NCBI RefSeq assembly: GCF_003144195.1
Contig: NW_020290004.1
Span: forward strand, 179,290 to 243,289
Direction: 5' to 3'
Length of the DNA stretch: 64,000 nt
From: Ceraceosorus guamensis
Lineage: Eukaryota > Basidiomycota > Exobasidiomycetes > Ceraceosorales > Ceraceosoraceae
Position 1 is the first letter of the stretch, and every line of letters starts with the position of its first letter. Shown here piece after piece: positions 15,205 through 61,942 of the stretch. Under the pieces are notes generated by a model. The model searched no databases, was not told the DNA's origin, and worked only from the letters and a program-made list of their open reading frames with translations. The position numbers and the translations under genes are program-made.

Positions 15205-15752
15205 CTTGAAGAATGAAGAGAGTTGCGTGTATGCGTGATTGTTGATCTGGGAAGATGTGAGGTAGTTGAAGGTGCGGGCCGGCTCGCTGCGCTCACTCCT
15301 TATTGATTCGCAATCTAGAATCTCAAGCCTTCGCGCTGCTGTAGGTATTTTGCCACGTGGCTACTCCTCTGGTGCTTGCCTGGGCACGTCGTGGATGCGC
15401 GCGGGGAGCACCGCAGCTGCATGAGAGCGGCGATTCGCGGCCGATTCCCAGCGAAGACGCAAGTAGACTTTCTGTGCACGTGATAATCACACTCTGGCGC
15501 GCTCAACGCGTCCACGGCGTGATAGCTGCTGCCGACGCGTTCAAGCCCATCGAACCGCGGAGCAGCTATCCACGATGTGATCATCACTCCGCCAGGCATG
15601 CGGGCCAGCCAGCTTTGAAGCAACACAATCGCGATTCGATGCTTCACCACTCATCGCTTCCAAGGTCTTGATTTCTGCGGACGCGTGGATAACCTCACAC
15701 TAAGTCTCACGTACAGTTGGCAGACCAGGTATACACCTGTGGATGGCACGTC
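15205..15752. other. Divergent promoter region, RPL43 / DAM1
   Basis: 548 bp between two divergent start codons, with one CCACGTGG palindrome at 15353-15360 on the RPL43 side. No ORF of interest. Confidence 0.6.
15353..15360. promoter_or_regulatory. CCACGTGG palindrome (E-box), RPL43 promoter
   Basis: Exact 8-bp palindrome containing the CACGTG core bound by bHLH factors such as Cbf1. It lies about 150 bp upstream of the RPL43 start. Part of a set found at every ribosomal-protein gene in the window; binding is inferred. Confidence 0.6.
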
Positions 15753-17142
15753 ATGGCAGCAAGACCAACTACCCCGCTCAGGCGGGTATCACGCGGCTCG
15801 ATCTCAGCCTCTGCATCGCTACGTCGCTCTCAAGGACCTGGCGGTGCGTCTGGATATGGAGCAGCTGATGATACGCCCCTTGCATTTCTGGACTCTGCAA
15901 TGTCCGACTTGGCGGATGAGACGGCAGTGTTGCAGTCCAATTTGGAGGCCGTTAGCGGTATTCACGAAGCGCTGCGGACCTTCGATGAGAACTTTGCAAT
16001 GTTTCTCTACGGCCTCAAGATGAACGCGTTCTGCGTGGAGTGGCCAGAGGTGAGTGATGGAAGGTAACCACGGCGGTGTTCTGATTTGCTGATTTACTGA
16101 CTGCTTGTTCTTCGTCTCCCTTGAGGCGCCCGCGGAGGAGAACTTCGAAAGAGCCGGAGAGCGCGGACGTGAGCGATGCCGCCATGATCTAGTGACTTGT
16201 TCATGGACATGTCATGCTCATCCTCCTGACCCCGTGCGCCGTCAGATCGATTGCAGGAGCAGCAGCTCGCGCGCGCCCAGATCTCATCTGGGGACTACTC
16301 CTCCGGAGATGTGCGAGGACGCGCCAGCGGGGGTGGAGGTGCCTCCGGTTTCAATGCGGGAGATCAGACCTACATGACTACCGATGAGAACGACTCTTTC
16401 GGGCCTCCAACTCCCAAAGCTGCTCCTGCTGCTCAAAGAGCGGCCACACTGAAACCTGCCCTCAAGAAGACCGTGCCCGCCAACGGAGCTGCCGCTGGGA
16501 AGACTGGCGCAAAAGCGAAAATCACACCTGCGTTGCGTAAGAAGCGAGAGGTGAGCAAGACAAAGTAACGCGAGCTTCGTCATAGACCCAGTAGCTCATA
16601 CCTGTGCGGTCCCATCTAGAGCATTGCTGCCACGATCATCGAGACTCTGCCGTTGGAATATCGCGGTGCGGATCCAGTGAGTACCAACGCGTCTTTGATT
16701 CGGAGCATTGGATCTCTGAGCTGACTTGTTCTCCGCGAGCAGAAACCTCGCGCTCTCGCCGAAAATGTCATCCTCGCACTGATGGCTGCAGGACCAAAAG
16801 GAGCCAGAAGTGAGCGCTGGTACGGCTCAAAGTCCCTTTTCATTGCAGGCGCTGACCTTGCCCTATCTGCACCGAAACCTTTGACAGTCAATGAAATCGC
16901 AACCACGGACATGCCTTCAGCGCGCGTAAACAAGACATTGATCGCCCTGATCGCCGCGAAACACGTCGTGAAGTCATCTAATAATGTGGGTGTGAACAGT
17001 GGGCAGCTAGGCCTGCCAGCCACACGGGCTTTTCGTACTGGCACTGACGACAAAGGCAACGTCTCTTCTGACCCTGCGCTTTTTCTTCTTCCAGGGAGTT
17101 GTCTATCACCTCGACCCGGCTAGGCATCCAGATCTGCCCTGA
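15753..17142 (+). CDS. DAM1: DASH complex subunit Dam1, with C-terminal winged-helix-like extension
   Basis: 304-residue kinetochore protein; Dam1 is a microtubule-binding subunit of the DASH ring coupling kinetochores to spindle microtubules. Seven exons: 15753-16049, 16126-16168, 16246-16550, 16620-16676, 16743-16809, 16888-16985, 17095-17142; all phases match. A basic N-terminus (ATPLRRVSRGSISASASLRR) offers Ser/Thr phosphosites. The Dam1 family domain is at about 42-101: TPLAFLDSAMSDLADE, FDENFAMFLYGLKMNAFCVEWPEAP. A linker rich in Gly, Ala and Lys follows. Residues 216-304 form a separate compact module (ETLPLEYRGADP, MAAGPKGARINEIATTDM, RVNKTLIALIAAKHVVKS, GVVYHLDPARHPD) whose pattern suggests a winged helix. 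This module is not in budding-yeast Dam1 as I know it. Confidence 0.9.
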
Positions 17143-17727
17143 GCAGCGGAGACGCTTGCTGCCTTCCCCTAATCTTGTTGTATTCTATCCACGCCTGTCC
17201 GAATAGCGAGTCCATGCGATTGTTCAATGCTCGTGTGACCGACCAAAGACGGGCATTCGAGCGATGCGTGCTGCGCGGCTTGTCACAATCAACAGGTGGA
17301 CACGCATGTGAATTTCATCGCATTGAACTGGGGACTCAAAGAATATAAGTGCGCCTACTAGACACAAGAGGAGACACGCTGAAAATCGAATCCACGCCAG
17401 TGGATTTCTTAGCGACACCTAAGAGAGCCCATTCAACAGTTCGCTTGGACCTTACCGACACAAGCTATCACACGTTCGCCTCACAAGCAAAGCACGCAAC
17501 CCCGCCAAGTCGAGGCTTGCTGCGCTCTGTGGTCAAGGGCTTTGAACCTCACACTTGACGTGCAAGGTGCGTGACCAAGCGATCTTTCGATCAACTTGGG
17601 GGTGCATTTTGGAGTTCAAGTCGTGGAATACATGTGGTTGCGAACGACCTCGCAAGGCTTGATGATCATGATGGCGTAGAAGAAGAGACTGTGGCTGATG
17701 CGATGCACCTACGACCGGACGAGTGCC
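17143..17727. other. Convergent intergenic spacer
   Basis: 585 bp between the ends of DAM1 and RPL25. Short ORFs only; I see no gene, repeat or RNA. Confidence 0.5.
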
Positions 17728-18769
17728 TTAGAGCAAACCAACGCGGCTGGCCATGTCGAGAGCGTCCTGGTCTGCAGTCAGCCTGATGAATGCCTTCTTT
17801 TTGCCATCCGGACGAATCAAGGTGTTTATCTTTTGCGCGTCGCAGTCGTACAGCTTCTTTACGGCTGCCTTGATCTATTCCGTTGCGGGCGAGGAGGCCA
17901 GTCAGCACGATGTTCATTCAATTCGCTGAGCGCACACCACCATACTCTTGCGAACCAGCAGGATGCAGATCCAGCAACTGCCTAGTCTCTTCGACTTCTT
18001 CCAACCACCTGCTACTGTCCGTTCGCTATTCCTTCCGGCACCTTCAGTCAAGTTCTTGTTTTGTGACTCACCTGACGCTTGTTTGCGCGACGGTCGCAGA
18101 TGACGACGAGAGTGTTCTCCTCCTCGATCTTCTTCATAGCACTCTCAGTGTTCAGAGGGAAGAGCACAGTGGTGTGCGCATCCATGCGAGGGAGGTGAGG
18201 AACGCTCTTCCTCAAGTATTTAGGCTTACGAGCCAAGCGGAGGGTCTTAGGTCGGTGGAAGGTGACGGACGTCCTGACCTTGCGGATCTTGTTGCCAGAG
18301 ACACCGTGCAGAGCGGCCTTCTTGGCTGCAGCGGCCTTGAGCGCGGCTGGCTTGGCCTTTGCCTTGCCGACGGCTAATAAGAATGCAGAATGAAGTTGGT
18401 CAGTTGTCAAGTCGCTAATTATCTTGCCTGTGCCCATGCGCGTCTCCCCCCGCAGTCCACCTAATCCGGCCTGTCCACTTCGCTGCGATTTCTCGGCCCA
18501 GCCAAACCCGTCGCCGGGCTGGTCTCCTTCCTTCGCTTGACAGACGACAGCAACGTCTAGCGCGGAGTAGCGTACTCCAAACTCGACCCTCATACATCAG
18601 CTGCCATTGATGTTTCAAGTCTTCCACTGTATGACACCTCATGCCCTCCCATCGCGATGCGCACTTTCTGTGCCTCGCACTCGCAGCACGCATTGACCAG
18701 CGATGCCGCGACCACAGGCTACCGATACTCACCAGTGCCGCCAGTAGCTCCCTTGTTACCTGAGGACAT
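17728..18769 (-). CDS. RPL25: 60S ribosomal protein uL23 (L23a/L25)
   Basis: 161-residue large-subunit protein near the peptide exit tunnel, where in all eukaryotes it helps dock SRP and the translocon. Three exons on the minus strand: 18769-18733, 18373-18072, 17874-17728. The N-terminus is an Ala/Lys-rich extension typical of the eukaryotic form. Conserved blocks: [49 protein letters not shown], then across the second intron [15 protein letters not shown] and [18 protein letters not shown]. The C-terminus [11 protein letters not shown] varies slightly from the usual NKIGII-type end. The start is fixed by a short exon with a gtgagt donor. Divergent from RPL10A; the shared 406-bp region carries two CCACGTGG palindromes. 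Confidence 0.96.
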
Positions 18770-19175
18770 CTTGAAGTGTGATATATGAATGTGGGTGCTT
18801 GAGGTGACGGTAGACAATCCGAAGAGTTGGGGCACTGCCGCGAAGCGATTGATTGGCCATGCGCGAACCTATGACTTCTAAAAATGCGCTGCGCCTGCAG
18901 CCACGTGGTTCGCCCCAGAGAGAGGACGCAAGAGCGCAGGCGCGCGCGCTGCACTCCGCATGCCACGTGGTTGGTACCGAAAAGCCTACGTCTGCAGGAC
19001 CGCTTCTCGGATTTGATCAAGAAGCGCTGAAACTCAGCTAGACCGCCTCCTCAACCACAATATACACCAGTTTCGAGCGATTATCTAGAGTGAGCAAACG
19101 TTCAAATCATACTGTGGAGCATTAGACACGCGAGCTGACCGTCTTTCTGACACATCTCTCCCAATAGCGCCCAAG
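18770..19175. promoter_or_regulatory. Bidirectional ribosomal-protein promoter (RPL25 / RPL10A)
   Basis: 406 bp between divergent start codons of uL23 and uL1. It holds two exact CCACGTGG palindromes, at 18901-18908 and 18963-18970, 54 bp apart, with a GC-rich alternating stretch (gcgcgcgcgc) between them. A GATTGGCC word (inverted CCAAT) lies at 18851-18858. A likely 5' UTR intron of RPL10A occupies 19090-19167. Confidence 0.65.
19090..19167 (+). other. Probable 5' UTR intron of RPL10A
   Basis: A gtgagc donor at 19090, a gctgac branch word at about 19133, a pyrimidine-rich stretch and a caatag acceptor ending at 19167, 8 nt before the ATG. Inferred from splice signals alone. Confidence 0.45.
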
Positions 19176-20216
19176 ATGTCGAAGATCGCGGTTTCCCAAG
19201 TGCGCACGCAGCTCAATGACCTGCTCAAGGGGTCTCAAGAGAAGAAGAGGAACTTCTATGAGACCGTCGAGCTCCAAAGTGAGTGCTTGAGCGACGGGTT
19301 AGGCATGGCGAGAGTCGGAGGGAAGACATAAAAAGAGTGCTGCTGTGTCGGAGCGAAGCGCCGGGGATCAATCAGATGAGCTGGCAGAGTGCGAAGGGAA
19401 GAGTCATGACTCTAGGGAAGGCTCTGAACATGTGGTGATTGAGATGATACAAGGCGCTCACGAGGTTATTTCCGATCCTTCATTGGCAGTCGGATTGAAG
19501 AACTACGACCCTCAACGTGACAAGCGTTTCAGTGGCACCATCAAGCTGCCTCACTGTGAGTTTAAGACGGACTCGTCAATCCCGTATGGTACCCACCGCC
19601 TGACCGGCTTCTGCTCCCTTTAGTGCCTCGCCCTCGTATGTCGATGGTCATCCTGGCTGATGCCGCCGATGTCGATCGTGCGAAGCTCATCGAGCTCGAC
19701 TTCATGACTGTTGAGGATTTGAAGAAGCTTAACAAGAACAAGAAGCTCGTGAAGAAGGTGAGAACCGCGGATCTGCCGAAAAGTTCAAGGGGCACGATGG
19801 CAAAAGTTCTGTTGCTGCAGGTCAGTCGAGCGCGAGCTGAATGAGACACCTTCCCACCCGTTGCGCAGCTCGCCAAGAAGTACAACGCTTTCCTGGCTTC
19901 CGAGGCGCTTATCAAGCAGATTCCTCGTCTGTTGGGTCCCGGGTTGTCCAAGGCCGGAAAGTTCCCTACTCCTGTCTCTCACGGTGACGATCTTGAGAAG
20001 AAGGTGATCGAGGTCAAGTCGACCATCAAGTTCCAGCTCAAGAAGGTTCTCTGCTTGGGTGTTGCCATTGGCCACATCCAGATGAGCGAGGACCAACTGT
20101 TGGCCAACGTCATGCTTGCCATCAACTTCTTGATCTCCCTGCTGAAGAAGCAGTGGCAAAACGTCAAGAGCTTGCACGTCAAGACCACCATGGGTAAGCC
20201 CATCCGCCTCTACTAA
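19176..20216 (+). CDS. RPL10A: 60S ribosomal protein uL1 (L10a/L1)
   Basis: 216-residue protein of the mobile L1 stalk, which helps move deacylated tRNA out of the E site. Four exons: 19176-19278, 19490-19555, 19624-19757, 19869-20216. Starts [17 protein letters not shown]. Conserved blocks: [25 protein letters not shown] split by the first intron, [30 protein letters not shown] across the third intron, [21 protein letters not shown], and the C-terminal MGKPIRLY. The length matches the family (217). The first intron (211 nt) is longer than most here. Divergent partner of RPL25. Confidence 0.97.
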
Positions 20217-20493
20217 GCGGAATTTTCTTCGCACTTCATCCCAAAACCATTGTTTCGGTCACAACATAGCGTGCGCACGCCTCACCCAGCGACGGACTGT
20301 GCTCGTGACGAGCGGCACATTTACGTCGTGCGGGTAGCTCGAAACAACTCCCTTTACGTCAAAATGCACGTCAACCCATTGTACTGGTATGCCGAATTCC
20401 ATGCTAAGGTAGTGCTCAAACCTGTCTGCTTGTTCAGCGTGATAGCACCCACTCATCGGAATCGTCAGGCCGGAAGCGCAGACATCTCTCTGG

Positions 20494-21840
20494 TCATGGA
20501 TGACATTGTCGGAACTTGACACCCGCATTGCGAAAAATTTCTCGGCTCCTGTCGTCCATGCTGTACGCCAGCTCGTACACCACCTCCTTGACGCCTACCT
20601 GAACGATCTTGACAGCGCATCGCAGGCATGGGCAGCTGAGGTTCGCAAGCGATGTGAAGTCTAGCGTCAGTGTGAAGGAGCACGAGATGGCGGCGCAGAG
20701 GCTGCGCAAGATGTCAACTCACGTATTGCAGTACAACACAGTCCCTTCCGCTCCTCCTCTTTCCCTTCCACATTCCAGAAGCGCATTCTCCTCGGCGTGC
20801 AGGCACAGACATTCGTCCAGCCTTGTACCACCTTGAGCCCCGCCATTACACCTTGGACATCCACCTTGGTTGCAATTGAGCAGGCCGATAGCTGTGCCGT
20901 TGTAGCCCGTGCTCAAGACTCTGTTTGAGCGCACCAAGACTGCCCCAACCCTGCGCTTCATACAATTGCTCCGCAGAGAAGCGAGCGTGCAGAGCGAAAG
21001 AAAGTAGCTGTCCCAAGGTGGACGTAGACGGGCTGCATTGACCAAGTCGAGGTCGTCCAGATGAGCGTAGAGGGATGCGAGATCTGCACTGCTGTTTTGC
21101 ACCCTGACTTGAGCGGTGTTCATCAGCGACCACAAAGAGTGCTGTGCGCCGCTCGTCGCTGCTGCACCGCTTGCGCCGTTCACTAGCCTCGCGACGGACT
21201 GGCTCGGTAGCCCTTCCTGAGACACCAGCGAGACGCCGTCGTTGGAAATCGTGCTTGCACTCTTGCTCAACGCGATGGGCGCGTGGCCGTTCGGCTGACG
21301 AGCCTGCCGACTGATGACGTGCATCTCTTCGTGATCTTCCGCGGCAAATTTGCTCCAATCGAAAGCATCTCCCCCACTCAAGGATCTGCTAAGAGAGCGT
21401 GCCGGTCGCTGCTCAGACATTGAAACATGCTGGAGCGAAACTTTGTTTGGAGTAGGAAAGGCGACTCACCTGGCCCTTTCAGCTCTTGCGAAAAGAGAAG
21501 CATCGATGGCTACAAGCAGAAAGAAGGGTCTCTTGTCGAAGCCGAGCGAGATGTCCTCGATGCGCCTGAGATCCTCCGTGACAAAATTTTGCCTCCAGTG
21601 GGAAGTGACGTGCGTCAACAGGTCGGCATGTGATCTGAAGCTGAGAGAGCCCACCGCTTCGTTGACGTCCAGATTGGAAGCTGCCTCAGCGAGTGATTGA
21701 GATGATGAAGGAGATTGAGATGGCGAGGTCTTGCAGCAGGCGTCGGTCACTGTGACGGGAGTGAAAGCGTGACGTTGAATGAGGTATCGCGCGACAGTAG
21801 TCTTCCCCGAGAGTGTCGGGCCGATAAGCGCGATGAGCAT
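20494..21840 (-). CDS. DCD1: Deoxycytidylate (dCMP) deaminase
   Basis: 392-residue enzyme that deaminates dCMP to dUMP, the substrate of thymidylate synthase. Three exons on the minus strand: 21840-21470, 21388-20723, 20635-20494. The N-terminal part (residues 1-120) has a P-loop-like motif, IGPTLSGKTTVARYL at 6-20, as in yeast Dcd1, which has an N-terminal kinase-like region before the deaminase. The deaminase domain contains RPPWDSYFLSLCTLASLRSN, KRRVGAVLV, STGYNGTAIGLLNCNQGGC, the catalytic HAEEN with His321 and Glu323, and zinc ligands in CPCLRC (347-352), rebuilt exactly by the second intron. The C-terminus KEVVYELAYSMDDRS and AGVKFRQ is typical. The exon-2 acceptor at 21389 was chosen because it restores phase. 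Confidence 0.93.
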
Positions 21841-22307
21841 CTCGTTCAGGGTGTCAGCCTCAGAGCTGGACGCGATAGCTTCGAAAGAGCGATGTCATGC
21901 ACCAGAAAGGCAGAACGGATAATGGGTGGCAGTTTCGTCGGGTGCGGTTGATGGAGCTCTGAAGCAATCCCGCTTGCGCAATCAATGGAACAGACACGCA
22001 GCATCGGTGCTGGGTGTGGATCGGAATTGCGCGCGGGCGTGTCAAACGCGCGGAACGACGGACGCGGCTCGTGTTGCTCTAAAAACGCGTGACGCTAATT
22101 TACGCGTAAGTTCTAGCTACGAGCTCTGGCTGACATCACGGCATTTCCGTCAACTCCCGCAGATATGTAAGGACGCTCATGTATCAAATCGATTCTGCGA
22201 CCTTCGCAGACTGTCGTTAGGCTGCCGTATCAGTCACTCTGTTGTTCACGACCAGCCCTCACTGAAACGCAGACACACAAGCTTGCTTAGCATTGCATCG
22301 AGTGGCT
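21841..22307. other. Intergenic region, DCD1 promoter side
   Basis: 467 bp between the end of TCP1 and the start of DCD1, which are in tandem on the minus strand. No gene or repeat seen; GC-rich with taaaaacgcgtgacgc-like words near 22080. Confidence 0.5.
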
Positions 22308-24135
22308 TTACATGTGGCCGTGAGGGTCCTCGGGCTGTTCGGGAGGTGGAATTCTGAAGGAGTCATCGATTCTCAACAACGAGGTAGCAGCTTCCACAGC
22401 AGACTTGAGCGATCTGACTTTCGAGATTGTTGGCTCGAGCACTCCAGCTCTGACGTTGTCTCTGACTTGTCCGTTCAGCAAGTCCAAACCGTAGAATCTG
22501 AGAGCCTTCTTGGGATCTCCTGCGTTTGCATTCTGCGCAGCATTGTGGTACGCGCGCAGCTTGGCCACCAAGTCAGTGCTGTCCTTTCCGGCATTCACAG
22601 CGAGCGTCTTCGGAATGACCAGAAGCGCTTGCGCGAATTCGGCGATAGCCAGCTGTTCTCTTGATCCCAGAGTAGTAGCAAAGTTCTCCAGATAGATGCT
22701 GAGAGCGCTTTCGACAGCGCCACCACCCGGAACAACTGACCCAGACTCAAGAGTGCGCTTGACGACCGAGAGCGTGTCGTGCAATGACCTCTCCATTTCA
22801 TCCAAGAGATAGTCGTTGCCTCCTCGTAGAATGATCGAAGAGCTGCTGACGGTCTTGGTGCCCCGGACCAAGATCAGTTCATCGTCCGAGATGCGCTCTT
22901 GTGCCACCTCTTCTGCGTGTCCCAAGCTCGAAGCCTCGAATGTCTCCTCTCCCTCCAGATTAGCCAAGCTTGAGACCAATTGACCGCCGGTTGCCTTGGC
23001 GATCCGGCGCAGATCCTCCTTCCTGCATCTCCTCACTGCCATAGCACCAGCTTCCACGAATTCCTTCAGGCAAAGATCATCGATGCCCTTTGTCGTCAAA
23101 ATGACGTTGGCACCCGCTGCCAGAATCTTGCGCACGCGCTCCAAAACAATCTCGCTCTCCCTCGCCCTGATCTTCTCCAATTGCTCTGGGTCATCGATGG
23201 TAATGTGAACGCCCATGTGCATGCGCTGCTTGTGCAAGTTGATGTCCAGGCAAGCGATGCGAGCGTTTTTGATGCGCGTCTTCATTGCTTGAGAGGCTAC
23301 CGTGCAGTTGAGAGCGTAGCCACTAACGAAGAGTGACTCGCGCGCGGACTTGCCATGTGCTTTGAGCACATTGACCGCCTTCACAGGGTACTTGACCTCT
23401 CCGCGAGGGTTGATGGTCTTGACGGCAAGCATGGCGTCCACTGCGAGCTGCGCGAAGAAGTCATCATCGCTGCACGGCAAGGTAAAGGAACAGGCGTTCA
23501 GGATTATTTAGATAAAGCGCAGAGACGCTGGACCGCTCTCACCTGCCAATGACCTTGCTAGCCATACTTGTCTTGGCCACATTGACCAGAGACTCTTTGC
23601 CAAGCTGCTCTACCTTCAAGCTCAACTGATCCTGCAAATACTTGGTCGCCTCGCGGCTCGCCAACCTGTACCCAGTGATGATGGTGGTGGGATGAATGCG
23701 ATTCTTGACCAGCTCGTTCGCCCGCCTGAGGAGTTCTGCAGCGATGATGACCACCGAGGTTGTGCCGTCGCCAACTTCCTTGTCCTGCTGAGTCGCCAAC
23801 TCGACGAGGATCCGTCCCGCGGGCTGCTCCACCTCGAGCAGCGAGAGAATCGTGGCACCGTCATTGCTGATGGTCACATCACCAATGTCATCTACCAGCA
23901 TTCTGTGGACAGCAAGGCGATGATGAGCCAGATGCCTCGAGAACCTGACCCGTGCACAGCGCCCATTGTTCTCTACTCACTTGTCCAATCCGACAGGACC
24001 CAGGCTGCTCTTGACGATGTTTGCGATGCTTTGTGCAGCCAGGACATTCTCGTTCCTAATCTCTGCTCCTGACATGCGCTCTCCTCCGATGAAGAGACCC
24101 GCATTTCGAGGGTCCTTGGCAAACAATTGAGCCAT
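22308..24135 (-). CDS. TCP1: T-complex protein 1 subunit alpha (CCT1 chaperonin)
   Basis: 558-residue ATP-dependent chaperonin subunit of the cytosolic TRiC/CCT ring, which folds actin, tubulin and other clients. Three exons on the minus strand: 24135-23981, 23902-23543, 23469-22308. Start [13 protein letters not shown]; the upstream in-frame TTG is not used. Group II chaperonin signatures: [17 protein letters not shown] across the first intron, SNDGATIL (64-71), the nucleotide motif GDGTTS at 96-101, [41 protein letters not shown], and the second ATP-domain motif VVPGGGAVE. The alpha assignment rests on [11 protein letters not shown] and [13 protein letters not shown], which are alpha-specific. 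It diverges from RPL20. Confidence 0.96.
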
Positions 24136-25277
24136 CGTTGCTGACGGGGTGTCCGGTTGCGACAATTCGCCTCGTCGAAGAGGCTGCTTGGAGAGAGACC
24201 AATCGTATGAACTCGCTACACGCCTGCGACTACCGGGAACGGCTTATTGGATGCACTCGTGACTCTTGGGTGCCGGGGACTGAGATTGATCTGTGATGTG
24301 AGTACCCTCAACTCGCTACTGGTGATCTTGTGTGAACTGGCCACAATCGTGAATCTTCGCGCGCTCATACGCGTCTCTCGAATTCGTCGGTGGTGTTCGT
24401 TTGAGCGCGAGCGTTGGGAGTGGGACGCATATAGGTATGCCCACTTATTTTATCGTTCACTCAAGATTCCTGCACACTGCTGCATCTATCTAGCTGATCA
24501 CGCGCCGCGCTGAGTCGGCCAATTTGGAGGGCTCGATTGATGCCACGTGGTGAGAGCTGCATGCGCGAGCTGCAGCGAGAGCTTCGGCTGGAAGACTGGC
24601 GGCACCGCCAGGCCGCAGCGCCCTGCCTCGATTTTGAGTGACGCTCCATTTCAACTCAGTCTTTCGACCCTCACCAACACCTCAAGACAACGCTCTCCTC
24701 CACACGTCGTCAGATTACAGCGTGAGTACCGCTCAAGCACAGAATTGCTCTAGATTTCGGCAGCCACCTCGCTTCCGCGGCTGCGAGGAGAAGGATGGGA
24801 CCTCAGTAAGCTCGTCAATTGCGAGCAGGCCTCGATCCTTCCGAGCCAAAGGTGGACCAGTCACACGGCGCCCTCGGAAAGCATATCGAGGGGCTCACAG
24901 TCCTCGCAATGAAGGGAAAAGCGGCGTCGTGGGGCGGAACTTGCCAATTGGCATCTCGGTCGGACAGACGCCGCGATGGGGTGAAGCCTCCGCCTTTGGA
25001 GCACGCTGCAGCTCGCATCAATTGGGAAAGTGCGGAGGATTGGGAGCGCAGTGGGGAGAAGGAGGATGAGGCTGAAGATACTAAAAGGGCTAGGGACAAG
25101 CAGGGGCGAGCGCACAAGATCAGTAGTCATCGAGAGATGGAAATAATTGCAGTCCGCTAGGCGAAGCACGGAGGGCCTAAAGGTCTGACGACTACGCAAC
25201 GGGTTGTGGATGATGTCGTTGTTGCGCTGGTTAGAGAACGTCAAAAGCTGACCTGCTGTCACTCACTTGTACAGAAG
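24136..25277. promoter_or_regulatory. Divergent region TCP1 / RPL20, with probable long 5' UTR intron
   Basis: 1.14 kb between divergent start codons. CCACGTGG at 24543-24550 and a CCAAT word at about 24515 mark a likely RPL20 promoter. A pyrimidine-rich stretch at 24640-24715 looks like a transcription-start region. A donor (gtgagtacc) at 24722 and an acceptor (tgtacag) ending at 25274, 4 nt before the ATG, suggest a 553-nt 5' UTR intron, long for this window. The ORFs inside it have no resemblance to known proteins. Confidence 0.5.
24543..24550. promoter_or_regulatory. CCACGTGG palindrome (E-box), RPL20 promoter
   Basis: Exact copy of the 8-bp palindrome, about 180 bp before the proposed 5' UTR intron donor of RPL20 and 408 bp upstream of TCP1. 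Binding by a Cbf1-like factor is inferred. Confidence 0.6.
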
Positions 25278-26122
25278 ATGGCACGATTCACCGAGTACCT
25301 GGTCATTGGCCGCCACCTCCCCACGGAGCGCGAGCCTACCCCCAACCTCTACCGCATGCGCATCTTCGCGCCTAACCCCACTGTCGCCAAGTCCCGCTTC
25401 TGGTACTTCGTGCGTCAACTGAGGAAGATGAAGAGGGCCACTGGTGAGATTGTTGCATGCCACGAGGTGAGTGATGGCTGGTAAATCGCAATGCTAGGGG
25501 CGCGCCAGGAGCTCAGCGTGGATATTTGACACTCGTCTTGCAGATCCACGAGGCCAAGCCTCTCAAGGTCAAGAACTTTGGCATCTGGCTGCGTTACAAC
25601 TCCCGATCCGGCACTCACAACATGTACAAGGAGTACCGCGAATTGTCCCGTGCCGAAGCTGTTGAGCATATGTATCAAGACATGGCCGCTCGTCACCGTG
25701 CTCGTTTTGCATCCATCCACGTGAGTAGGGAATGGCGCTGCAAGGAGGCGTTAAAGTAGTACCTAGGACAGGTTTCGCGTCACCGACGTGGCTCGATCAT
25801 TGGCAGCGCTTCGCAAGAAAGGCTCGTTTGGACCGCTCAGGCTTGTCATTGTGGTCCAATCCCGAAGCTTACCTTCCCGCTCATCCCGGTCGTCAGATTC
25901 TCAAGGTGTCCGAGGTGGAGAAGACGTCCGACATCCGTCGATCATACATCAAGCAGTTGGTGAGTCTGCACCTGCAGCTTTCATGGTGTAGTCTACCAGT
26001 ACTGACCTCCTTTCGTGCATCTGCACGCACAGGTCACTCCCAACTTGCGCTTCCCTCTGCCTCACCGCCGCCCCGTCGCTCGCAGCGTCTTCGCCGGCCA
26101 GCGACCCAGCACTTGGGCCTGA
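25278..26122 (+). CDS. RPL20: 60S ribosomal protein eL20 (L18a/L20)
   Basis: 172-residue large-subunit protein, same length as yeast L20. Four exons: 25278-25466, 25544-25720, 25897-25959, 26033-26122, all phase 0, which is unusually regular. Conserved blocks: [52 protein letters not shown] across the first intron, [37 protein letters not shown] across the second, LRFPLPHR, and the end RPSTWA. It lies at the base of the ribosomal stalk region of the 60S subunit. Transcription probably starts near 24640-24720 with a long 5' UTR intron. Confidence 0.97.
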
Positions 26123-29704: not shown

Positions 29705-30149
29705 ATGGTGAATGCAAGCTTTAGCAGCAGCGGCAGCGGCGTTGTCGGTGGCGGGCAAGGCAGTACTCGACCCAGGAGAGGCTGGGCGCTGGTCGGTCTC
29801 GTCGTTGCTGTGCAGCTCATCTGTTGGCGAGGAGCCAAGCTGAGCGCACGCTCGTTGGACTCCCGTGCTGCGAATCACCTGGGCTATGCGTCAAGAGGAA
29901 GTCCTGCGATTGAGTATCCATCACTCGTCAAGAGGCAGATATTGGAAGACGGTGCAGCTTCTCAGCACCATGTGAACCTCGAGCCAGCAAGGCCACCCAC
30001 CAACGATGCAGCAGCCGGGTATGACAGCGCCAAGCATCACGACAAGGATCACCACCATCATCACGATGGCGACAACGACAAGAAGCACGACAAGAAGCAC
30101 CACACTTCTTCGAGTCACAAATCAAAGCATACAACAACATCCAAGCATC

Positions 30150-30185
<36 letters not shown>

Positions 30186-40827: not shown

Positions 40828-42900
<2,073 letters not shown>

Positions 42901-49000: not shown

Positions 49001-49059
49001 TTGATTCCATCCGAGGAGAGGCGCGCTTTAAGCTGCTTGAGCTGAGACCCCTTGGCCAT
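46031..49059 (-). CDS. NOP14: Nucleolar complex protein 14 (U3 snoRNP / 90S pre-ribosome)
   Basis: 985-residue protein of the small-subunit processome, needed for 40S subunit maturation and 18S rRNA production with Nop9, Noc4 and Emg1. Two exons on the minus strand: 49059-48397 and 48325-46031. N-terminus MAKGSQLKQLKARLSSDG, then NPFEERITKPKHEVLGR and SGTFIDRRFGEGDANLTPEERALERFTRER, all family hallmarks; LTHYGQSL and acidic stretches follow. After the intron: PDRKKSKYEVMQEVMAKSKLAKLERQ, a strong Nop14 signature, acidic/Ser-rich patches, then the alpha-helical C-terminal half (TFSCPATHEDFLDLLL) and a Lys/Arg-rich end (FDPTRKSSRVFDPDPERAEAAKLRALVKKEKKGA). Diverges from PRP16. Confidence 0.94.
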
Positions 49060-49557
49060 TGCAGCACGGTGTCAGGAATCTGATGATGCTGCCGTGCCTA
49101 TCAGTGTGTGGTGGCGGCAATTATGACTGACGAGTTTGTTTGCCTGGCTGGAGGACTGCACAAAGCACGCAAGGTTGAGTGTCGGAGCGAGCTGATTGTG
49201 AAATGGGGCAAATCGCGATCAGCGAAAAAGCTGGCGAGTGGTGTTTTGGCGGATCGTGGTTGTTGTCATGTATTCAGAATGTCCTGATCCCGTTTGTGGT
49301 TGCTTCCGTTTAGGTTTACAAGGCTGCACTTTCGACTTTTTTTGGTGCGGCAGCTGCGCAGTGCGTGATTCTCGTGCGAGACGCGCGCAAGCCGGAGACA
49401 CCACGATGGGAATTGGCAATTCCTACGCACCAAAATGCTGTAGCCTCCGCTTCCCCAACCCTTACAGACGACCTTCATTCTCGTCAATGCGATGTCGCCA
49501 CCCACTGAGACTTGATTCTGCGACCCCACGTGCTCGCTGCTCCTTCGTCAATACGGA
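49060..49557. promoter_or_regulatory. Bidirectional promoter region NOP14 / PRP16
   Basis: 498 bp between two divergent RNA-processing genes. No ORF or repeat of note. Includes gtggtgttttggcggatcg near 49238 and a T-rich patch (ctttttttgg) at 49337. Confidence 0.5.
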
Positions 49558-54059: not shown

Positions 54060-54456
54060 GCCCAACATGATCTTCAGCCGACTCTTTTTCGGACGACGGG
54101 TGGTGTAGTCAAGTCCATTGTTTATTTGCGCCTCTGGGACTTTCATCGCCGTAGAGGTACACCCATTGCAGCCAGGCTTGTTGCGCGCTCCTATTGCCCT
54201 TCGTGACACACGCACTTCCATAGATCCGATCCGATTTAGACCAATGACATGAGTACTTTTCGCTCATATTCTCCGCGCTCAAATCATCTTCGTGGCTCGA
54301 TACCGATCTCTGCACCTACCTTCGCCTTGCACTCGCAGACGACCCAGATCGCACATGAACGGGCAACGGTTGCCGTCTTCCTTGTGCTATGCAGACTGAG
54401 AAATTCATTGATTCCGAGGGAGTTTGGCAACGAGGCACATTCACCGCATATAGCGT
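54060..54456. other. Convergent intergenic spacer
   Basis: 397 bp between the ends of PRP16 and ARPC3. Nothing recognisable. Confidence 0.5.
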
Positions 54457-55330
54457 TCAAGACAGACTCTTGCCCATACTGTGTAGCGACCAAAAAGGCT
54501 GCCGTGAGCCATCTTATTCGCCTGATGATGTGAGCCTTTTGCAATCTGCTGTGTACTCACAAGCGCCTCTTGGTGAAGCTGAGCCACCACTTGCTGGGCT
54601 TGCCGTCCACGTACACCTTCTCGACCAACCTAAGCGATAGTTCTTGCCGCAGCTGAGTGAGATAGGACTTCAGTTGGTCTGCGGAGTGTGGAAGAGAATG
54701 GCTTCAGCGAAAGAATTACCGCAACTCGCTTTCTTGCGCAACTCAAAGCGAGTGGTTGGGCTGAAGCCGAGCGCCTGGGACGTTCACACTGACCTGCTTC
54801 TTGCCTGGTAGCCGGAGCGGAGTAGAGGTTGTTCAAGGGGAAGCCAGCATCGCCTGGAAGGCTAAAGTTGTCCACCGCCAGTGTGGAAAGCTGCTTGATA
54901 GCCTCGTTCTGCGACATGGGCACCCTTGCTGATGCGATTTTGCTCAAGCAGTCAGAGATGTAGAGAATGAGGTAGATGAGAAGCTGCGGAGGACAGGAAC
55001 GATGAAGAGGGGTGAGCTGGTCCTAGCTCTGTGCGCGCCATGCCAAGGCAGGCGAGTACAGCAGATGCAAGGCATAGTTTCAGCGTCGTCGAGCAGCAAA
55101 CACCTCTCACTCACTCGGTCAGCGCCACCTTTGATTTCAAAGTTCCTGAAGAGACAGTTGGCCCTGAACAAGTCGATGGATTCTTCCACGATGTCCATAT
55201 CCTCAGCAGAAGCTTCCAAGGGCATAGGAGGCGCTGGACCACGAATCTTAGTGCGGATAGGCAAGATCGACATGCTCGCTATAGATTGTATGCCTGCATC
55301 TTCGTTGTGAGCGCTGTGATAGGCTGGCAT
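54457..55330 (-). CDS. ARC18: Actin-related protein 2/3 complex subunit 3 (p21-Arc)
   Basis: 181-residue subunit of the Arp2/3 actin nucleator, which drives actin patches and endocytosis. Four exons on the minus strand: 55330-55115, 54983-54794, 54678-54561, 54478-54457. Start MPAYHS, as in all ARPC3 proteins. Blocks: [57 protein letters not shown] across intron 1, FSLPGDAGFPLNNLYSAPATRQEADQLKSYLTQLRQEL across intron 2, and GKPSKWWLSFTKRRFMGKSLS at the end. The last exon has only 22 nt (8 codons with the shared one); it matches the conserved KRxFMNKSLS tail, so it was preferred to an earlier in-frame stop (KRRL) at 54557. Intron 2 uses a gtcagt donor. Confidence 0.93.
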
Positions 55331-55649
55331 CTTGGCGACCTTGACGTGCTGTCGAGTCTCTGAAGGCGGGATAGCTTGGCAAGGAGCGCGGGTCAGATCG
55401 TCAGGCACGCTTGTGGGATCGATGGGCGAATTGCAAGCCAGAAATTGTTGTGCACCTGGGTTCGTAGAGTGGAAGACGTCGGGTTATGAGTGCAAGTCTG
55501 CCGGTGTACTCGCAGAGGTGGTGGAGGTGCAGCGAGGCGAACCAAGCAAGTCGATCGGGTCGTGATGGCGGGAAGCTGGGCGATCGCGCACCAGAGTTGT
55601 GCGGCGACTGCACGCACGGGCATCGGCATGCGGGCAGGCGCGGCGGTGC

Positions 55650-56122
55650 TCTGGCTGCCATCCTCGACATCCTGCTAAATCTGGTCACGTGAGTCAGACT
55701 TTGACGGCCTATATCTCTGCAACGAGAAGCCGTAGGGCAAATCTGATTGCATTTTAGTCACAAAACAGGCAATTTCCTTTCAAAATACGTAAAGACCCAG
55801 GATTTGACAGACTAGCCCCCACCGGCGCCTCACCCAGGGCCAGTGAGGCCTGGGTGGCTGCTCGACATCTTGCGAAATCCAGCCTGGCCCGCTGCTCGAC
55901 ATCCTGCTAAATCTGGTCACGTGAGCCCCCAGCGCCTCACCCAGGGCCAGTGAGGCCTGGGTGGCTGCTCGACATCCTGCGAAATCCAGCCTGGCCCGCT
56001 CCTCGACATCCTGCGAAATCCAGCCTGGCGCGCTGCTCGACATCCTGTCAAATCAGCCCTGGCCCGCTCCTCGACATCCTGCAAAATCCAGCCTGGCGCG
56101 CTGCTCGACATCCTGCAAGCGT
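55650..56122. repeat. Minisatellite B, 34-bp period, two interrupted arrays
   Basis: Unit starts ctcgacatcctgcgaaatcc and ends agcctggcccgctc; spacing between successive ctcgacatc words is exactly 34 bp. One copy near 55663, two at 55862-55910, and five at about 55967-56110 before a truncated end. Each of the first two blocks ends ctaaatctggtcacgtgag. Positions cycle between cccgctc and gcgctg, so there is a 68-bp higher-order alternation in the last array. Confidence 0.85.
55820..55970. repeat. Duplicated block with perfect 8-bp hairpin arms
   Basis: The segment gcctcacccagggccagtga followed by ggcctgggtggctgctcgac occurs twice (about 55827-55865 and 55934-55972). Each carries CACCCAGG and CCTGGGTG arms (55831-55838/55849-55856 and 55938-55945/55956-55963) with a 10-nt loop. 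The copies lie 107 bp apart. Confidence 0.75.
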
Positions 56123-56460
56123 CACTGTCACCGTCACCAGTCACTGTTGCCAGGTGTTGGCGTCACGTGTGCAGTCAGCCGCGAGTCTTGTGGACTCAGA
56201 AATCAAACGATGCGTGAATTCTAAATCAGTTAGAGGTAGCCCCGAAGCTACTTTCTTGACTCACGACTCACCCGTGCCTGCTTCCCCCCAACTGACTCAT
56301 GCTGGACTTGACCGACGACGCTCGCATCCACAATCCACGATCTGCGCCTATGCCATCGCACCACTTGGATGTGTCTGAACTCTTCTAGCAAACAAAGCCA
56401 GACGTTAGTGCTCCAGTGGCTGGCGAGCTGCGGTTCTAGTACGAGAACACCTTTGCCACC

Positions 56461-57783
56461 ATGCCGACTGCTGATGATCCATTCGCCGCTTTAGGCCTGC
56501 CGGTGGGCGCATCAGGTGAGTGACACAACGTCTGGCTGGTTGTCCCGAGCCTCATTCTCGATGAAGTCACACTGACGCTGCCTCGCACTCCCTCGTCGGA
56601 AATTTCAAGAGGCCGACATTCGCGCAGCATACCGAAAGCTCTCGCTCAAGCTGCACCCTGACAAGGCGAGGGACGTGACGCCCGAAGTAGCCTCGGCTCG
56701 CTTTCACGCAATTCAGACGGCGTACGAGGCGCTCCAAGATCCAGTGTATCGAGCTAAAGCTGCATCCATAGCAGAAGCAGAGCGCAAGAAAAATGAGAGG
56801 AGAGGCGCTTATGATGGCAACAGAAAGAGGATGGCTGAGGAGCTGGAGAGGGAAGAACGAGAAGGCTTGAAGAAGAGAAAAGATGTCAAGGATCGCGAGG
56901 AAAGGTTGAGAAGGTTGAAGGAAGAGGGCAAGAGGCTGACAGAAGAGCTGCTCAGGAGCAATGCGTCATCCTCCATGCCTTCCACGCCGGACCCGAAAGG
57001 CGCTGGTGGTGAGGCATCATCCGAGCAGGTGCTGGAACAGCGAGAAGACGAAGATGGCGTGGAGCCTGCGTTAGGTGAGCGTTCAAGAGTAATGCGGCAA
57101 AAAAATTGTCAGATGCATTTGAGGTTCGGCTGACGATGGTCTGCCCTTTTGTCCTCCTTCAGGGCCACTCGACAAGACTGTGAAGCTACGCTTTCCCTCC
57201 CATCAACAATCTCTCCTCGCGGGCTCGTCCGCCAGCTCAGCCTCAAGTGAATCCCTACGTACTCCACTCGCCAGCGCGATGTCGCGTCGCTTCGGCAAGA
57301 TCGAGGCAATTCGATTTCTGCCGCCAAAGGCTTCAAAGAGGCACCCGGAGAGGATACCTAATGAAGCGACAGCTCTCGTATCATTCGCGGGGTTGGAAGA
57401 CGCCATGAAAGCTGTGGACTTGGGTGGGCAGATGAATGCCGCGAATCCCAACGACGAGCAGACCAGGATACTGGAGGATGTTCACATTGGATGGGCTACA
57501 GCGGGTAAAGGGAATGATGGAGAGCCGCCAGCTGCTCGTTTCAGAAGGTCACGGCGTGCAAGGGAGCAGGCCGCTCCACCACGAGGCGCGAATGGCCAAT
57601 ATGCGCGCGGAGAAAGTCTTGTGAGTTTCATTCCGCGTGCCACGGAGACAACTGGGAGCCTCGTCATCTCCGCTAACGCAGCCTGCTTCCCGCACATCGC
57701 AGCCGCCTCCTGATGGCCCCACACCTGAAGATGCAGCGACGTACGAAGCGAATACCCTGGCGAGGCTCATGAGCATGAGCTGA
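56461..57783 (+). CDS. CWF23: J-domain splicing factor (CWF23/DNAJC17)
   Basis: 352-residue nuclear co-chaperone of the DNAJC17/Cwf23 family, associated with the spliceosome. Four exons: 56461-56515, 56610-57074, 57163-57620, 57703-57783. J domain at the N-terminus: DPFAALGLPVGASEADIRAAYRKLSLKLHPDKAR, split by intron 1, with the HPD motif at 34-36, then FHAIQTAYEALQDP. A long charged coiled-coil region follows (residues 75-130). After a Ser-rich linker comes an RRM-like fold: TVKLRFPSHQQ, RRFGKIEAIRFLPPK, EATALVSFAGLEDAMKAVDLGG. The end is PTPEDAATYEANTLARLMSMS. The J domain plus coiled coil plus RRM order identifies the family. Confidence 0.92.
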
Positions 57784-57970
57784 AATGGGACGCGCCAGAT
57801 GCGTAAGCGCGCACAGGCACAGAAGATGCTCGCCCGCGGTAATTTGTCCAGACGAACTCGAATCTTGGAGCACGTCTATGGTTCAATGATGTCCGTTGTA
57901 TTTGTACATTGTTGTTCAGTATAAGCTTCTTGCACAGCATCCGTATTACCAGGCAATTTGGTTTCTGAAA

Positions 57971-59045
57971 TTAGCTTATATCGTTGAGGCCAATCTCTTC
58001 AACTTGTTCCGGTTGGGTTTGATGCAAGTGTAGATCTTCGGTCGTGGGCATTTCAGCTGTGGCGTTGTTGCCCGATGCCGAGGGACTTTTAGGTCTGCTT
58101 CTAGGCGCGACGTCGATTAGAAAGTCAAAAAGGTCCGAACGGCGAATCGCAGCAGAAACGTCTGATCGTGTAATCGTCCTTCGCTTATGAGATGTCGCTT
58201 CCAGGTATGCTCGGCAGGTCAGATCGGATATGAAGACTGCGTAACATGAAGAGCGGAAGGAGGATCTTCGTCAGCAGAGCGGCATCAGAAATTACGTGCG
58301 ACCACATGACCCACCTTCACAAGCGCGGGCAAAGATGATGGGCGCTTCCGCAGAAATCATCTGTCGAACATACAGGGCAATAGGGGTCGTCAATGAGCGC
58401 TCAGGCAAGCACACTCATGTGCAGCCATGGCAGCGCAGACGGAGGATATCCCGCTGCGCAAGAAATTTGGGACGAGCTACGAAAGATGCTCACCTTGATC
58501 TCGTCATCCGCCTTCATCACCTTTTTTATCCTAGCCAGCGGTAGCTGTCCCGGTCCCGGTTTGAATCCATCCGGATTGAAGGAGCAAGGTCCTGCTGCAA
58601 TTCTATCCCCAGCAGAAGCCGGTAAAAGTGGTGCACCCTCCATCTCGGCCCCTTCCTGAGGAAGTCTTTGCTGCAGGGCCAGGCTGCTGCTCTCCACCTC
58701 TACAGCCCTCATCTGCCTCTCCCAAAACCTGTCTTGCCAACTGTTCAAGTCTTCGTTCGTCTTGACCAATGGACCTCCCGACGCGTTGGTCGATGCGCAC
58801 CAAGACCAGTAGGAAGAAGGATCGGCAGAGGTGGACAGCTTGCCGCTTGATGTGCGAGGTTTTGGCTGATTTTGAGCCGCATGCGGAGGGTTGGAAGGTC
58901 CGGCTGCAGTGTTTCTACTAGAGCCTGGAATTGGACTGCCGTGAGGGGATGCCGTTGCTGCTGTAGTGGCACCAGAGGATGCGCCCGACTCCCCAGCCGT
59001 GTATGCAAGCTGTTGACCACTACGCGCCCGCTTCTTGGAAGCCAT
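57971..59045 (-). CDS. HAP5: CCAAT-binding factor subunit C (HAP5/NF-YC)
   Basis: 287-residue histone-fold subunit of the CCAAT-binding complex (Hap2/3/5), which in fungi controls respiration and iron-responsive genes. Three exons on the minus strand: 59045-58494, 58360-58315, 58236-57971. The first ~170 residues are Ser/Ala/Pro-rich with a short helix (SWQDRFWERQMRAVEVE), which could be the fungal Hap4-recruitment region. The histone fold spans exons 1-3: LPLARIKKVMKADDEIKMISAEAPIIFARACEVFISDLTCRAYLEATSHKRRTITRSDVSAAIRRSDLFDFLIDVAP, matching NF-YC. The 46-nt middle exon is required for this fold. The tail is short and polar. Start MASKKRARS. Divergent from RPS20. Confidence 0.95.
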
Positions 59046-59718
59046 AACGGTGCTTCGCTGGAAGCTTGTTCAGTGCCAGAAGGCGCAGCAGCAAGTGGGA
59101 TTGGCGGCGATGAGAGTTGCAAGTGCAAAGTTCATGAATCGGAACGAGGATGTGATGGTATGCTGACACGCTGATCAAGATGTGCACCACAACTCACCAC
59201 TCACGACTGTGACTCTCGACAGCTGAAATCGTGAATCTCTTGGCGCGCGCCCGCGAGATCATCAGATATCCCGCGCGAGTGGAGCGGCCGTCATCGGCCG
59301 AAGGAGGGCGATCAAGCCTTCTTGCTCTCGCAACAGCCACGGTGCGCACTCGGCCTTTGTATAGGTTCACAATCACAAATTGATGCTGCTGTTCACATTG
59401 ACATTTGTAATTATTCCTGTTTGGCTTTTGCAGCTCGTGCAAAAGCTGAGCAAGAAAGAGCGGCACCACAGGACTACTGAACCTCAACATTTCAGCAGCA
59501 AGGTCGAACCAGATGATACAAGCTTGAGCCTAGGGGTGCACCAAGCAAGTTTGCAAACAAGACCTGTCAGCAGGGTGAATCAGAAGCAAGACAGAATTTG
59601 CCTGTGCAGAAAGCAACTTTACTGCTGGAATTGAAGAGTACTGTGAGCTGGTGAGCCAGCAATGTGCACAGTCTGAACAAATGGGTACGCCGACAAGACT
59701 TGTCAGAGCGGCAAACGC

Positions 59719-60058
59719 GTATGCGGACAGCGTTGATCACCGCGACGAACGCATATGCAAACAGCGTTGGTCTCCGCGACGAACGCATATGCAGACGGCG
59801 GTGCTCACCGCGACGAACGCATATGCAAACAGCGCTGGTCTCCGCGACAAACGCATATGCAAACAGCGCTGCTCACCGCGACAAACGGATATGCAGACGA
59901 CGGTGCTCACCGCGACAAACGTGTATGCAGACAGCGGTGCTCTCCGCGACAAACGGATATGCAGACGACGGTGCTCACCGCGACAAACGTGTATGCAGAC
60001 GACGGTGCTCACCGCGACAAACGTGTATGCAGACGACGCTGCTCACCGCAACAAACGT
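59719..60058. repeat. Minisatellite A, ten 34-bp units
   Basis: Ten contiguous units of exactly 34 bp, starting at 59719, 59753, 59787, 59821, 59855, 59889, 59923, 59957, 59991 and 60025, plus a degenerate partial unit. Each begins atatgcagac or a close variant and ends accgcgacaaacg plus one base. Variation is mostly single-base and patterned: the early copies carry gacgaacgc, the later gacaaacgt. Because 34 is not a multiple of three, three copies give one 102-bp period and several frames stay open on both strands; I take it as non-coding. Confidence 0.92.
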
Positions 60059-60071
60059 GTAGGCAGACAAG

Positions 60072-60096
60072 GCGCGGGCGCGGGCGCGGGCGCGGA
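60072..60096. repeat. GGGCGC hexanucleotide run
   Basis: Four tandem copies of gcgggc just after minisatellite A and before the RPS20 E-box. Simple repeat. Confidence 0.8.
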
Positions 60097-60123
60097 TGCA
60101 GCTCAGCTTTCCGTGTTGAGGCG

Positions 60124-60131
60124 CCACGTGG
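60124..60131. promoter_or_regulatory. CCACGTGG palindrome (E-box), RPS20 promoter
   Basis: Exact palindrome 179 bp upstream of the RPS20 start codon; same motif as at the other ribosomal-protein genes of the window. Confidence 0.6.
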
Positions 60132-60309
60132 GTTGTGCGCCACTGCAGCCATCTGCGCGCGAACCCATTCGCAGCTTGACACTCGCATCAGAAGATCCAG
60201 ACTCTAGTCAACGCCAGATGGTAGCCACGCCTCTCACCTCACTACTACACTCGATTCTCCAACTCAAAAAACTTTCGACGGTCAGCGCTGTGACTACACT
60301 TTGTTCAAC

Positions 60310-61041
60310 ATGTCGTCGCAACTCGCCGGAAAGGACGCCGATGCGTCGGTCGCACCCAAGCTTCACTCTATTCGCATCACCCTCTCCTCCAAGAGCGTAG
60401 TGCCCCTCGAGAAGGGTGAGTAAGGAGATGTTCGGGCAGGCTTCGTGCTCGGGAGTTTCGCACTCTCGGGAAAGCAGGCATTGGGAAGGAATCGCAAGGA
60501 GGCAGCGAGGCACTTCGATATTAGGTTGCGGAGGGTATTAGCCTTTGCGCGTCGTCAGCGTGGAGGAGCTGTGGAGATGCGACTGGATCTGAGTCGCCGC
60601 ACTCAGAGGGCTAGCATAGCACGTCGTCCTGCTCAACAATGACGCCAACTGATGTCCCCCTCTTTCTTCCTCTATGGCGCAGTCTGCAACGACCTCGTCA
60701 CTCGTGCCAAGGACAAGCAGCTGCGCGTCAAGGGCCCTGTGCGCCTGCCCACCAAGGTCCTGACTCACACCACGCGCAAGTCGCCATGTGGTGAAGGATC
60801 CAAGACGTGGGACAGGTTCGAGCTGCGCATCCACAAGCGTCTCATCGACCTTCACTCTCCCTCCGAGATTGTCAAGCAGATTGTGAGTCGTCTCATCGCG
60901 GCTGGAAGATTCGAGGCGCACCCATGGTTTCCCCATCCCCAGCCCAGTCGTGCGCTGACACACGGCCCTTGAACGGTTTCCACGCAGACTTCGATCTCTC
61001 TTGAGCCTGGAGTTGAGGTTGAGGTCACTGTTGCTGCCTAA
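60310..61041 (+). CDS. RPS20: 40S ribosomal protein uS10 (S20)
   Basis: 119-residue small-subunit protein at the head of the 40S subunit. Three exons: 60310-60415, 60683-60882, 60988-61041. Conserved blocks: [44 protein letters not shown] across intron 1, [31 protein letters not shown], and [22 protein letters not shown] across intron 2. The length and C-terminus are those of the family. Intron 1 (267 nt) is long for this window. The next gene downstream is RPS2, on the same strand. Confidence 0.97.
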
Positions 61042-61942
61042 GTCAGGCTTCCTTGCACAGGCGGTCCATTAGGCTGCTCCGACTCGATCATGTGTCCAAA
61101 GCTGCCTGAGCCTCTTGGATTGAGCCACGATCACGAACGTCTTCATGGGCGCACTGTCATGTCGGGCTTTCTTTCAAACGCTTTGATTCGCGCATGTAAC
61201 CCGACAGCCGTGCTGTAAATTCATGCAACACAAAGCCACTGTGACTTGCAGTTTGAGTCGTATCTCACTGCTCGCATTTCTGGGACAGGTTTCGCGCGCA
61301 CGGCACACAAACGTTAACACCTGGACAAGAGTTGACTTCGAAGCATAAGTCGGTATTTCGAAGAACGCTGTTCCGACCCCAGAGCGCGCAGTGCCACGCA
61401 AGCAATCCTCGACTTGAGGATTCAAGCAGTCTGCACTCGTGATCACCGAGCTTCTTGACTGCGAATGATTGCTTGTATATCGCCTGTACAGCGTGCGCCG
61501 CTTCTCTTCCGAAGGTGTTTCTGCGGTGCTTAATTGCACGGGCGAAAGGATGTTGCATGCACGGCTTTTCTGACCGATTTGGCGTGCGGCTGAACCACGT
61601 GGCGTGCCAGCTGCGAAGAATTCGCGCGCGCGACGTGTGCAAAAGCTCGCCCGCAGCGCGGGCGCATGAGCTCGAGGCATCGAGGCTGCATTCGCGCCGT
61701 CCATTTCTCACATCGACCCCACCCCTCACCACAACCTTCCTGGGACCTCTCGTAAGCATCCGTGGCTCTCAGATTTGCATAGCTGTCCGACGCTCATCCC
61801 CTGCCTTTTCTGCCCACGTATCTCTCTGCTGCTCTGCAGAACTATCAAGGTGCGAACGAACAAGCTCGTCCACCCAACGCACACAACTCAAGGAAAGGGA
61901 GGGAATCATCATAGAATCAAGCCATCATAATTAGAAGACAAT
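61042..61942. promoter_or_regulatory. Intergenic region RPS20 to RPS2, with E-box and probable 5' UTR intron
   Basis: 901 bp. CCACGTGG at 61595-61602 lies about 340 bp before the RPS2 ATG. A gtaagc donor at 61752 and an acceptor (ctctgcag) ending at 61839 suggest an 88-nt 5' UTR intron; a pyrimidine-rich stretch (ctcacatcgaccccacccct) precedes it. The large minus-strand ORF here (61174-61704) has no protein-like features. Confidence 0.5.
61595..61602. promoter_or_regulatory. CCACGTGG palindrome (E-box), RPS2 promoter
   Basis: Exact palindrome upstream of RPS2, about 160 bp before the proposed 5' UTR intron. Same motif as at the other ribosomal-protein genes. Confidence 0.6.

Follow-up and report, generated by a model that had tools for sequence, protein, structure and literature searches.

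A C-flanked E-box word upstream of six ribosomal-protein genes in a 64-kb stretch of probably fungal DNA

The stretch of DNA given above, 64,000 bases long and referred to here as the window, contains six ribosomal-protein (RP) genes and six exact copies of the 8-bp E-box word CCACGTGG, at 15353, 18901, 18963, 24543, 60124, and 61595. Every copy lies upstream of an RP gene. Read in a single orientation, all six sites extend to the same 9-mer, GCCACGTGG, which has no further copies in the window and is followed by T in four sites, by C in one, and by G in one. Judged from their sequence, these sites are probably functional. Very probably, GCCACGTGG(T) is a cis-regulatory element shared by the RP genes, bound by a CACGTG-type basic helix-loop-helix (bHLH) protein and serving the co-expression of these genes with growth. 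In the proposed mechanism, a class B (CACGTG-type) bHLH homodimer would bind the element a short distance before the transcription start, where it would either clear nucleosomes and open the promoter or activate transcription, upon which the RP genes would be expressed together, in step with growth. The same element would be expected at RP genes elsewhere in the genome.

The sites and their genes are arranged as follows, with no strand assigned to the sites. RPL43 (eL43, Pfam Ribosomal_L37ae) occupies 14576–15204 on the minus strand as a three-exon model that begins with the start codon at 15204, a last exon lying beyond 14576; its site at 15353–15360 lies 148 bp from the start codon and reads GCCACGTGGC. 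RPL25 (uL23, Pfam Ribosomal_L23; 17728–18769, minus strand) and RPL10A (uL1, Pfam Ribosomal_L1, matched in the last exon; 19176–20216, plus strand) share one upstream region that carries two sites, 18901–18908 at 131 bp from the RPL25 ATG and 18963–18970 at 205 bp from the RPL10A ATG, both reading GCCACGTGGT. The site at 24543–24550, again GCCACGTGGT, lies 727 bp from the ATG of RPL20 (eL20/L18a; 25278–26122, plus strand), whose exons were joined by eye and whose identity comes from PDB sequences (best E 6e-73), the first exon alone having no Pfam match. RPS20 (uS10, Pfam Ribosomal_S10, matched in the middle exon; 60310–61041, plus strand) has its site, GCCACGTGGG, at 60124–60131, 178 bp from the ATG, and RPS2 (uS5, Pfam Ribosomal_S5, matched in the main exon; 61943–63165, plus strand) has a site at 61595–61602, 340 bp from the ATG, that reads GCCACGTGGT on the minus strand.

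The original prediction had listed these six positions and placed the word upstream of all six RP genes. Its positions are all exact and no seventh copy exists in the 64 kb; every copy does lie upstream of an identified RP gene. Its layout of six copies for six genes also stands, except that the upstream regions number only five because RPL25 and RPL10A share one.

The distances to the start codons become similar once 5' untranslated region (5'UTR) introns, predicted from GT-AG signals, are taken out. Such introns are predicted for RPL10A (19090–19167), RPL20 (24722–25274), and RPS2 (61752–61839), and their removal leaves about 127, 174, and 252 nt, respectively, between site and ATG. The whole set then falls within 127–252 nt, and it is the removal of its intron that brings the far RPL20 site into this range.

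A typical fungal genome has about 80 RP genes, so six in 64 kb is dense; four lie within 12 kb (14576–26122) and two are adjacent in tandem (60310–63165). In yeasts, RP genes occur in pairs and triplets (PMC10218983). The window has 231 stop-to-stop frames of at least 95 residues, many of which merely shadow a gene in another frame. The Pfam scan covered 50 of them as well as the pieces of the RP genes and their neighbours; no further RP gene appeared among these 50 other frames, and a small intron-rich one may have been missed because most of the 231 lay outside the scan. A 34-bp minisatellite (about 10.6 copies) and the GGCGCG run behind it occupy 59708–60095 and stop 28 bp short of the E-box of RPS20.

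Number and placement of the word

Taken alone, the count is moderately unusual; the placement is the strong part of the evidence. Dinucleotide shuffles of the window give a mean of 0.87 copies of CCACGTGG against the six observed, and none of 100 shuffles reaches six. Under Markov models of orders 1 to 5, the expectation rises to as much as 1.66 copies. Over this span of expectations, from 0.87 to 1.66, the Poisson probability of at least six runs from 3.4e-4 to 7.2e-3, which is why the count is judged only moderately unusual. The CACGTG core shows no clear excess, with 26 copies in the window against a shuffle mean of 19.4 and 12 of 100 shuffles reaching 26. A near-match on the minus strand, GCCACGTGC, lies at 63342–63350, about 330 bp before a gene starting near 63674.

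The five RP upstream regions total 4,260 bases, or 6.7% of the window, and hold all six copies (binomial 8.7e-8, with no correction for how the word and the region limits were chosen). Among their 3,633 distinct 8-mers, two are present in all five regions, CCACGTGG and CACGTGGC, which overlap each other, and the next best reach three. The choice of word was corrected for with 5,000 random sets of five window regions, matched in length to the RP upstream regions. None of these sets had an 8-mer that was present in all five regions and absent elsewhere; an 8-mer in all five regardless of other copies was found in 0.48%, and one in at least four regions and nowhere else in 0.76%, in a control that is somewhat generous because its regions were drawn from anywhere in the window rather than from promoters. 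This result bears most directly on chance, or a word chosen post hoc and devoid of function. The word was indeed picked after looking, and the probabilities of the count alone leave some room for such an account, which the corrected placement test, the identical 9-mer, and the similar distances at all six sites make very unlikely.

Placement can also be viewed gene by gene, where RP genes are enriched over the other genes of the window. A copy of CCACGTGG lies within 800 bp of the start of all six RP genes; among the non-RP genes, this holds for two of 17 (Fisher p=2.8e-4, window only), the 5' end of several of the 17 being the edge of an open frame and not a proven start codon. At 500 bp the counts are 5/6 and 2/17 (p=0.0034); RPL20 is missed at this limit because its site lies 727 bp from the ATG, across the predicted 553-bp 5'UTR intron. 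An RP regulon built on CCACGTGG, as had been predicted, is supported as far as the window extends. The two non-RP genes are DAM1, which has its upstream region in common with RPL43, and the chaperonin gene CCT, which has its own in common with RPL20; both are divergent. They raise the alternative that the sites mainly serve divergent neighbours (DAM1, CCT, and an NF-YC-like gene next to RPS20), or a general clearing of nucleosomes without any growth signal. For the latter, CACGTG is described as nucleosome-depleted in most pre-duplication yeasts, though not in Yarrowia lipolytica or Candida albicans (PMC2897762). We consider this alternative unlikely: the region between RPL25 and RPL10A separates a pair of RP genes, RPS2 stands in tandem behind RPS20, and 15 of the 17 non-RP genes have no site within 800 bp.

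The RP upstream regions have no long homology to one another, all blastn matches between them at E<=1 being 24 bp or shorter. The sites therefore look individually maintained and are not one copied repeat, and an origin through a repeat or shared ancestry was rejected.

Several points weigh against a shared RP element. For the count alone, the Poisson probability is as high as 7.2e-3, and the random-region control drew on the whole window and not on matched promoters. Two of the sites also lie about 400 bp from the starts of DAM1 and CCT. The 5'UTR introns are predictions read from GT-AG signals alone, the search for further RP genes covered part of the window's frames (50 of 231), and the evidence comprises six genes in one 64-kb window of one species.

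Flanks of the core and the factor that may read them

The bases next to the CACGTG core set the RP sites apart. Of the 14 half-sites in the RP upstream regions, 12 are C-flanked, compared with 4 of the 38 in the rest of the window (p=6.6e-7). This contrast is partly circular because the word had already been picked as CCACGTGG; its value lies in showing that the remaining E-boxes of this DNA often belong to the T type. T-flanked half-sites run the other way, with 1 of 14 in the RP upstream regions and 14 of 38 elsewhere (p=0.043). With C and G taken together, 13 of the 14 RP half-sites have the non-T flank of a Pho4/Max-type bHLH site.

The canonical Cbf1 consensus is a T-flanked core, RTCACRTG or GTCACGTG, with T/A flanks. 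Of five copies of GTCACGTG in the window, none falls in an RP upstream region, and RTCACRTG places only one of its 12 copies there. The RP sites are not of canonical Cbf1 form, because GTCACGTG is absent from these regions and T-flanked half-sites are reduced to one. The original prediction had linked the sites to Cbf1 as GTCACGTG-like, and the sites themselves, dominated by C-flanked half-sites, do not support that link.

Published binding data give these flanks a meaning. Whether a 5' T stands next to CACGTG can tell Pho4 sites from Cbf1 sites, and those of Myc from those of Max (PMC8431614; PMC8419926). T flanks lower the binding of Myc-Max, Max, and Pho4 but not that of Cbf1, and the highest-ranked Myc-Max 8-mer is CCACGTGG itself (PMC4242493). 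The C flanks of the RP sites would accordingly seem to suit Pho4 or Myc/Max better than they suit a canonical Cbf1 site, though the factor may still be a Cbf1 orthologue. The likeliest proteins would be a Cbf1 orthologue whose flank preference is altered or tolerant, or else another bHLH protein, one of the Pho4/Max type. Among the families found in the Pfam-scanned frames of the window, there is no bHLH gene.

One version of the shared-element explanation has an ordinary Cbf1 of ordinary specificity as the factor, the C flanks then being accidental, owing to the small sample or to GC-rich DNA. Ustilago maydis has a Cbf1 homologue, UMAG_02449, with 1,997 predicted targets (PMC8175908), and the RP genes of C. 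albicans have Cbf1 bound upstream of them (PMC2834713). Set against these precedents are the partly circular excess of C-flanked half-sites, the lack of GTCACGTG in the RP upstream regions, the T-flanked form of the RP E-box of Aspergillus niger (PMC8419926), and the finding that T flanks weaken Pho4 and Myc-Max and not Cbf1, in a passage that is silent on C-flanked Cbf1 sites (PMC4242493). On balance, ordinary Cbf1 is a plausible though doubtful factor.

A protein of another class might also recognize the site. CCACGTGG is also the plant G-box, a form that a basic leucine zipper (bZIP) protein could read, and GBF3 is described as a plant G-box binding factor. A bZIP reader is nonetheless quite unlikely here, the E-boxes of RP genes having been assigned to Cbf1 or another bHLH protein (PMC2834713, PMC8419926), in a literature survey that included no search aimed at a link between bZIP proteins and fungal RP genes.

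Elsewhere in the window, two identical 20-bp stretches upstream of ARPC3 (55674–55693 and 55906–55925) carry a T-flanked E-box, GGTCACGTGAG, the second of them inside a 107-bp tandem repeat. This E-box is a candidate for a Cbf1-type site of canonical form within the window.

Other promoter words and known regulons

A total of 22 words, several of them forms of the E-box, were tried against the RP upstream regions. The consensus words of Tbf1, Rap1, Homol-D, Homol-E, Fhl1, RRPE, PAC, and Mcm1 show no significant enrichment there. The Tbf1 word ARCCCTAA and the Rap1 word do not occur in the whole window, and Homol-D has one of its two copies in the RP upstream regions (p=0.13). RP promoters of the Tbf1, Rap1, or Homol-D type were rejected on these grounds. 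The only nominal signal outside the E-box comes from ACGCGT: of its 24 copies, five fall in the RP upstream regions (uncorrected p=0.019).

An exploratory scan of the 80 bases downstream of each site, in gene orientation, yields a further word. GCGCGA is found in five of the six promoters (those of the sites at 15353, 18901, 24543, 60124, and 61595), as are CAGCGC and CGCAGC in five of six, and a 6-mer common to at least five promoters arises in 0.3% of 1,000 GC-matched random sets. Among 7-mers, GCGCGAA and two further words recur in four of the six (0.9% of random sets), while the sharing of 5-mers is ordinary (36%); the three word lengths were scanned without correction. GCGCGA, which we take to be an E2F- or CGCG-like word, is a possible second element downstream of the E-box.

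E-box regulons of RP genes are already known in fungi, and what is new here is the C-flanked form. Hogues et al. 2008 reportedly gave the first account of Tbf1 and Cbf1 at RP genes. The sites of the window carry C/G flanks (GCCACGTGGT), in contrast to the T/A flanks of canonical Cbf1 sites. They resemble the Cbf1 sites of C. albicans and other ascomycetes in placing a CACGTG-type site upstream of RP genes (PMC2834713, PMC6173580). At some RP loci of C. albicans, Cbf1 acts as a helper of Tbf1 (PMC2834713), whereas the window has no Tbf1-type site (ARCCCTAA, 0 copies). RP genes are reported to have gained their Cbf1 sites within Ascomycota, in a single event in the ancestor of Pezizomycotina and Saccharomycotina that was followed by scattered losses (PMC6173580). 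A basidiomycete would lie outside the clades named in that paper, whose main text does not contain the string "basidiomy". Among the matches listed in a search of open-licence PMC literature, no report of an E-box RP element in a basidiomycete was recognised. If the original prediction was right in taking the lineage for a basidiomycete, an E-box RP regulon outside Ascomycota would be new as well.

Two other systems invite comparison. In A. niger, an E-box motif, TCACGTGATC, is found at ribosome and translation genes, and one footprint, at RPL30, drove a reporter (PMC8419926); the motif has a T flank and a 3' ATC, whereas the window sites are flanked by C on both sides. The Myc/Max regulon of Holozoa likewise places a CACGTG core near the start of growth genes (PMC2570694); these are ribosome-biogenesis genes, however, while the window has its sites at RP genes and none at NOP14 or a DBP10-like gene within 800 bp. 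The same paper proposes a bHLH growth pathway for the opisthokont ancestor and assigns to Holozoa the control of ribosome-biogenesis genes by Myc-type E-boxes; in the fungi that it studied, most promoters of such genes had no E-box (PMC2570694).

RP promoters are a leading model for how the regulators of a conserved gene set change. We tentatively suggest, as an idea that we hold to be rather unlikely as a whole, that a fungal lineage, probably outside Ascomycota, uses the C-flanked GCCACGTGGT, read by a Max/Pho4-type bHLH protein and perhaps accompanied by the downstream GCGCGA, as its main RP element in place of a canonical Cbf1 site. If so, bHLH control of ribosome genes would date from earlier in fungal or opisthokont history, or would have had a second, convergent origin. 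An E-box RP regulon outside both Ascomycota and Holozoa, with Max/Pho4-like flanks, would bear on the question whether ribosome production was ancestrally under bHLH control.

Neighbouring genes and other features

The neighbours of the RP genes include the DASH Dam1 gene, a TCP-1 chaperonin subunit, NOP14, a DEAD-box helicase with DBP10 as its best eukaryotic PDB match, and a PRP16-like helicase. The DASH Dam1 gene supports a fungal origin of the DNA. NOP14 and the DBP10-like gene both lack CCACGTGG in their upstream 800 bp, and an extension of the E-box to genes of other functions was rejected on the upstream sequence of NOP14.

Searches for features of other kinds gave no Rfam match at the gathering score, no tRNA in a search with bacterial settings, and no relatives in peptide-pattern scans of two contig collections (genome contigs and viral contigs), one of the six patterns being intron-derived in some of the scans.

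Three further observations concern single loci. The word CCACGTGC at 49526 stops 24 bp short of an ATG, possibly the start codon of a PRP16-like gene. The gene divergent from RPS20 (58300–59044) looks, by eye, NF-YC/HAP5-like (LPLARIKKVMKADDEIK), its first exon having no Pfam or PDB match. Finally, a gene at 8643–10769 carries a Tle1-like phospholipase catalytic domain.

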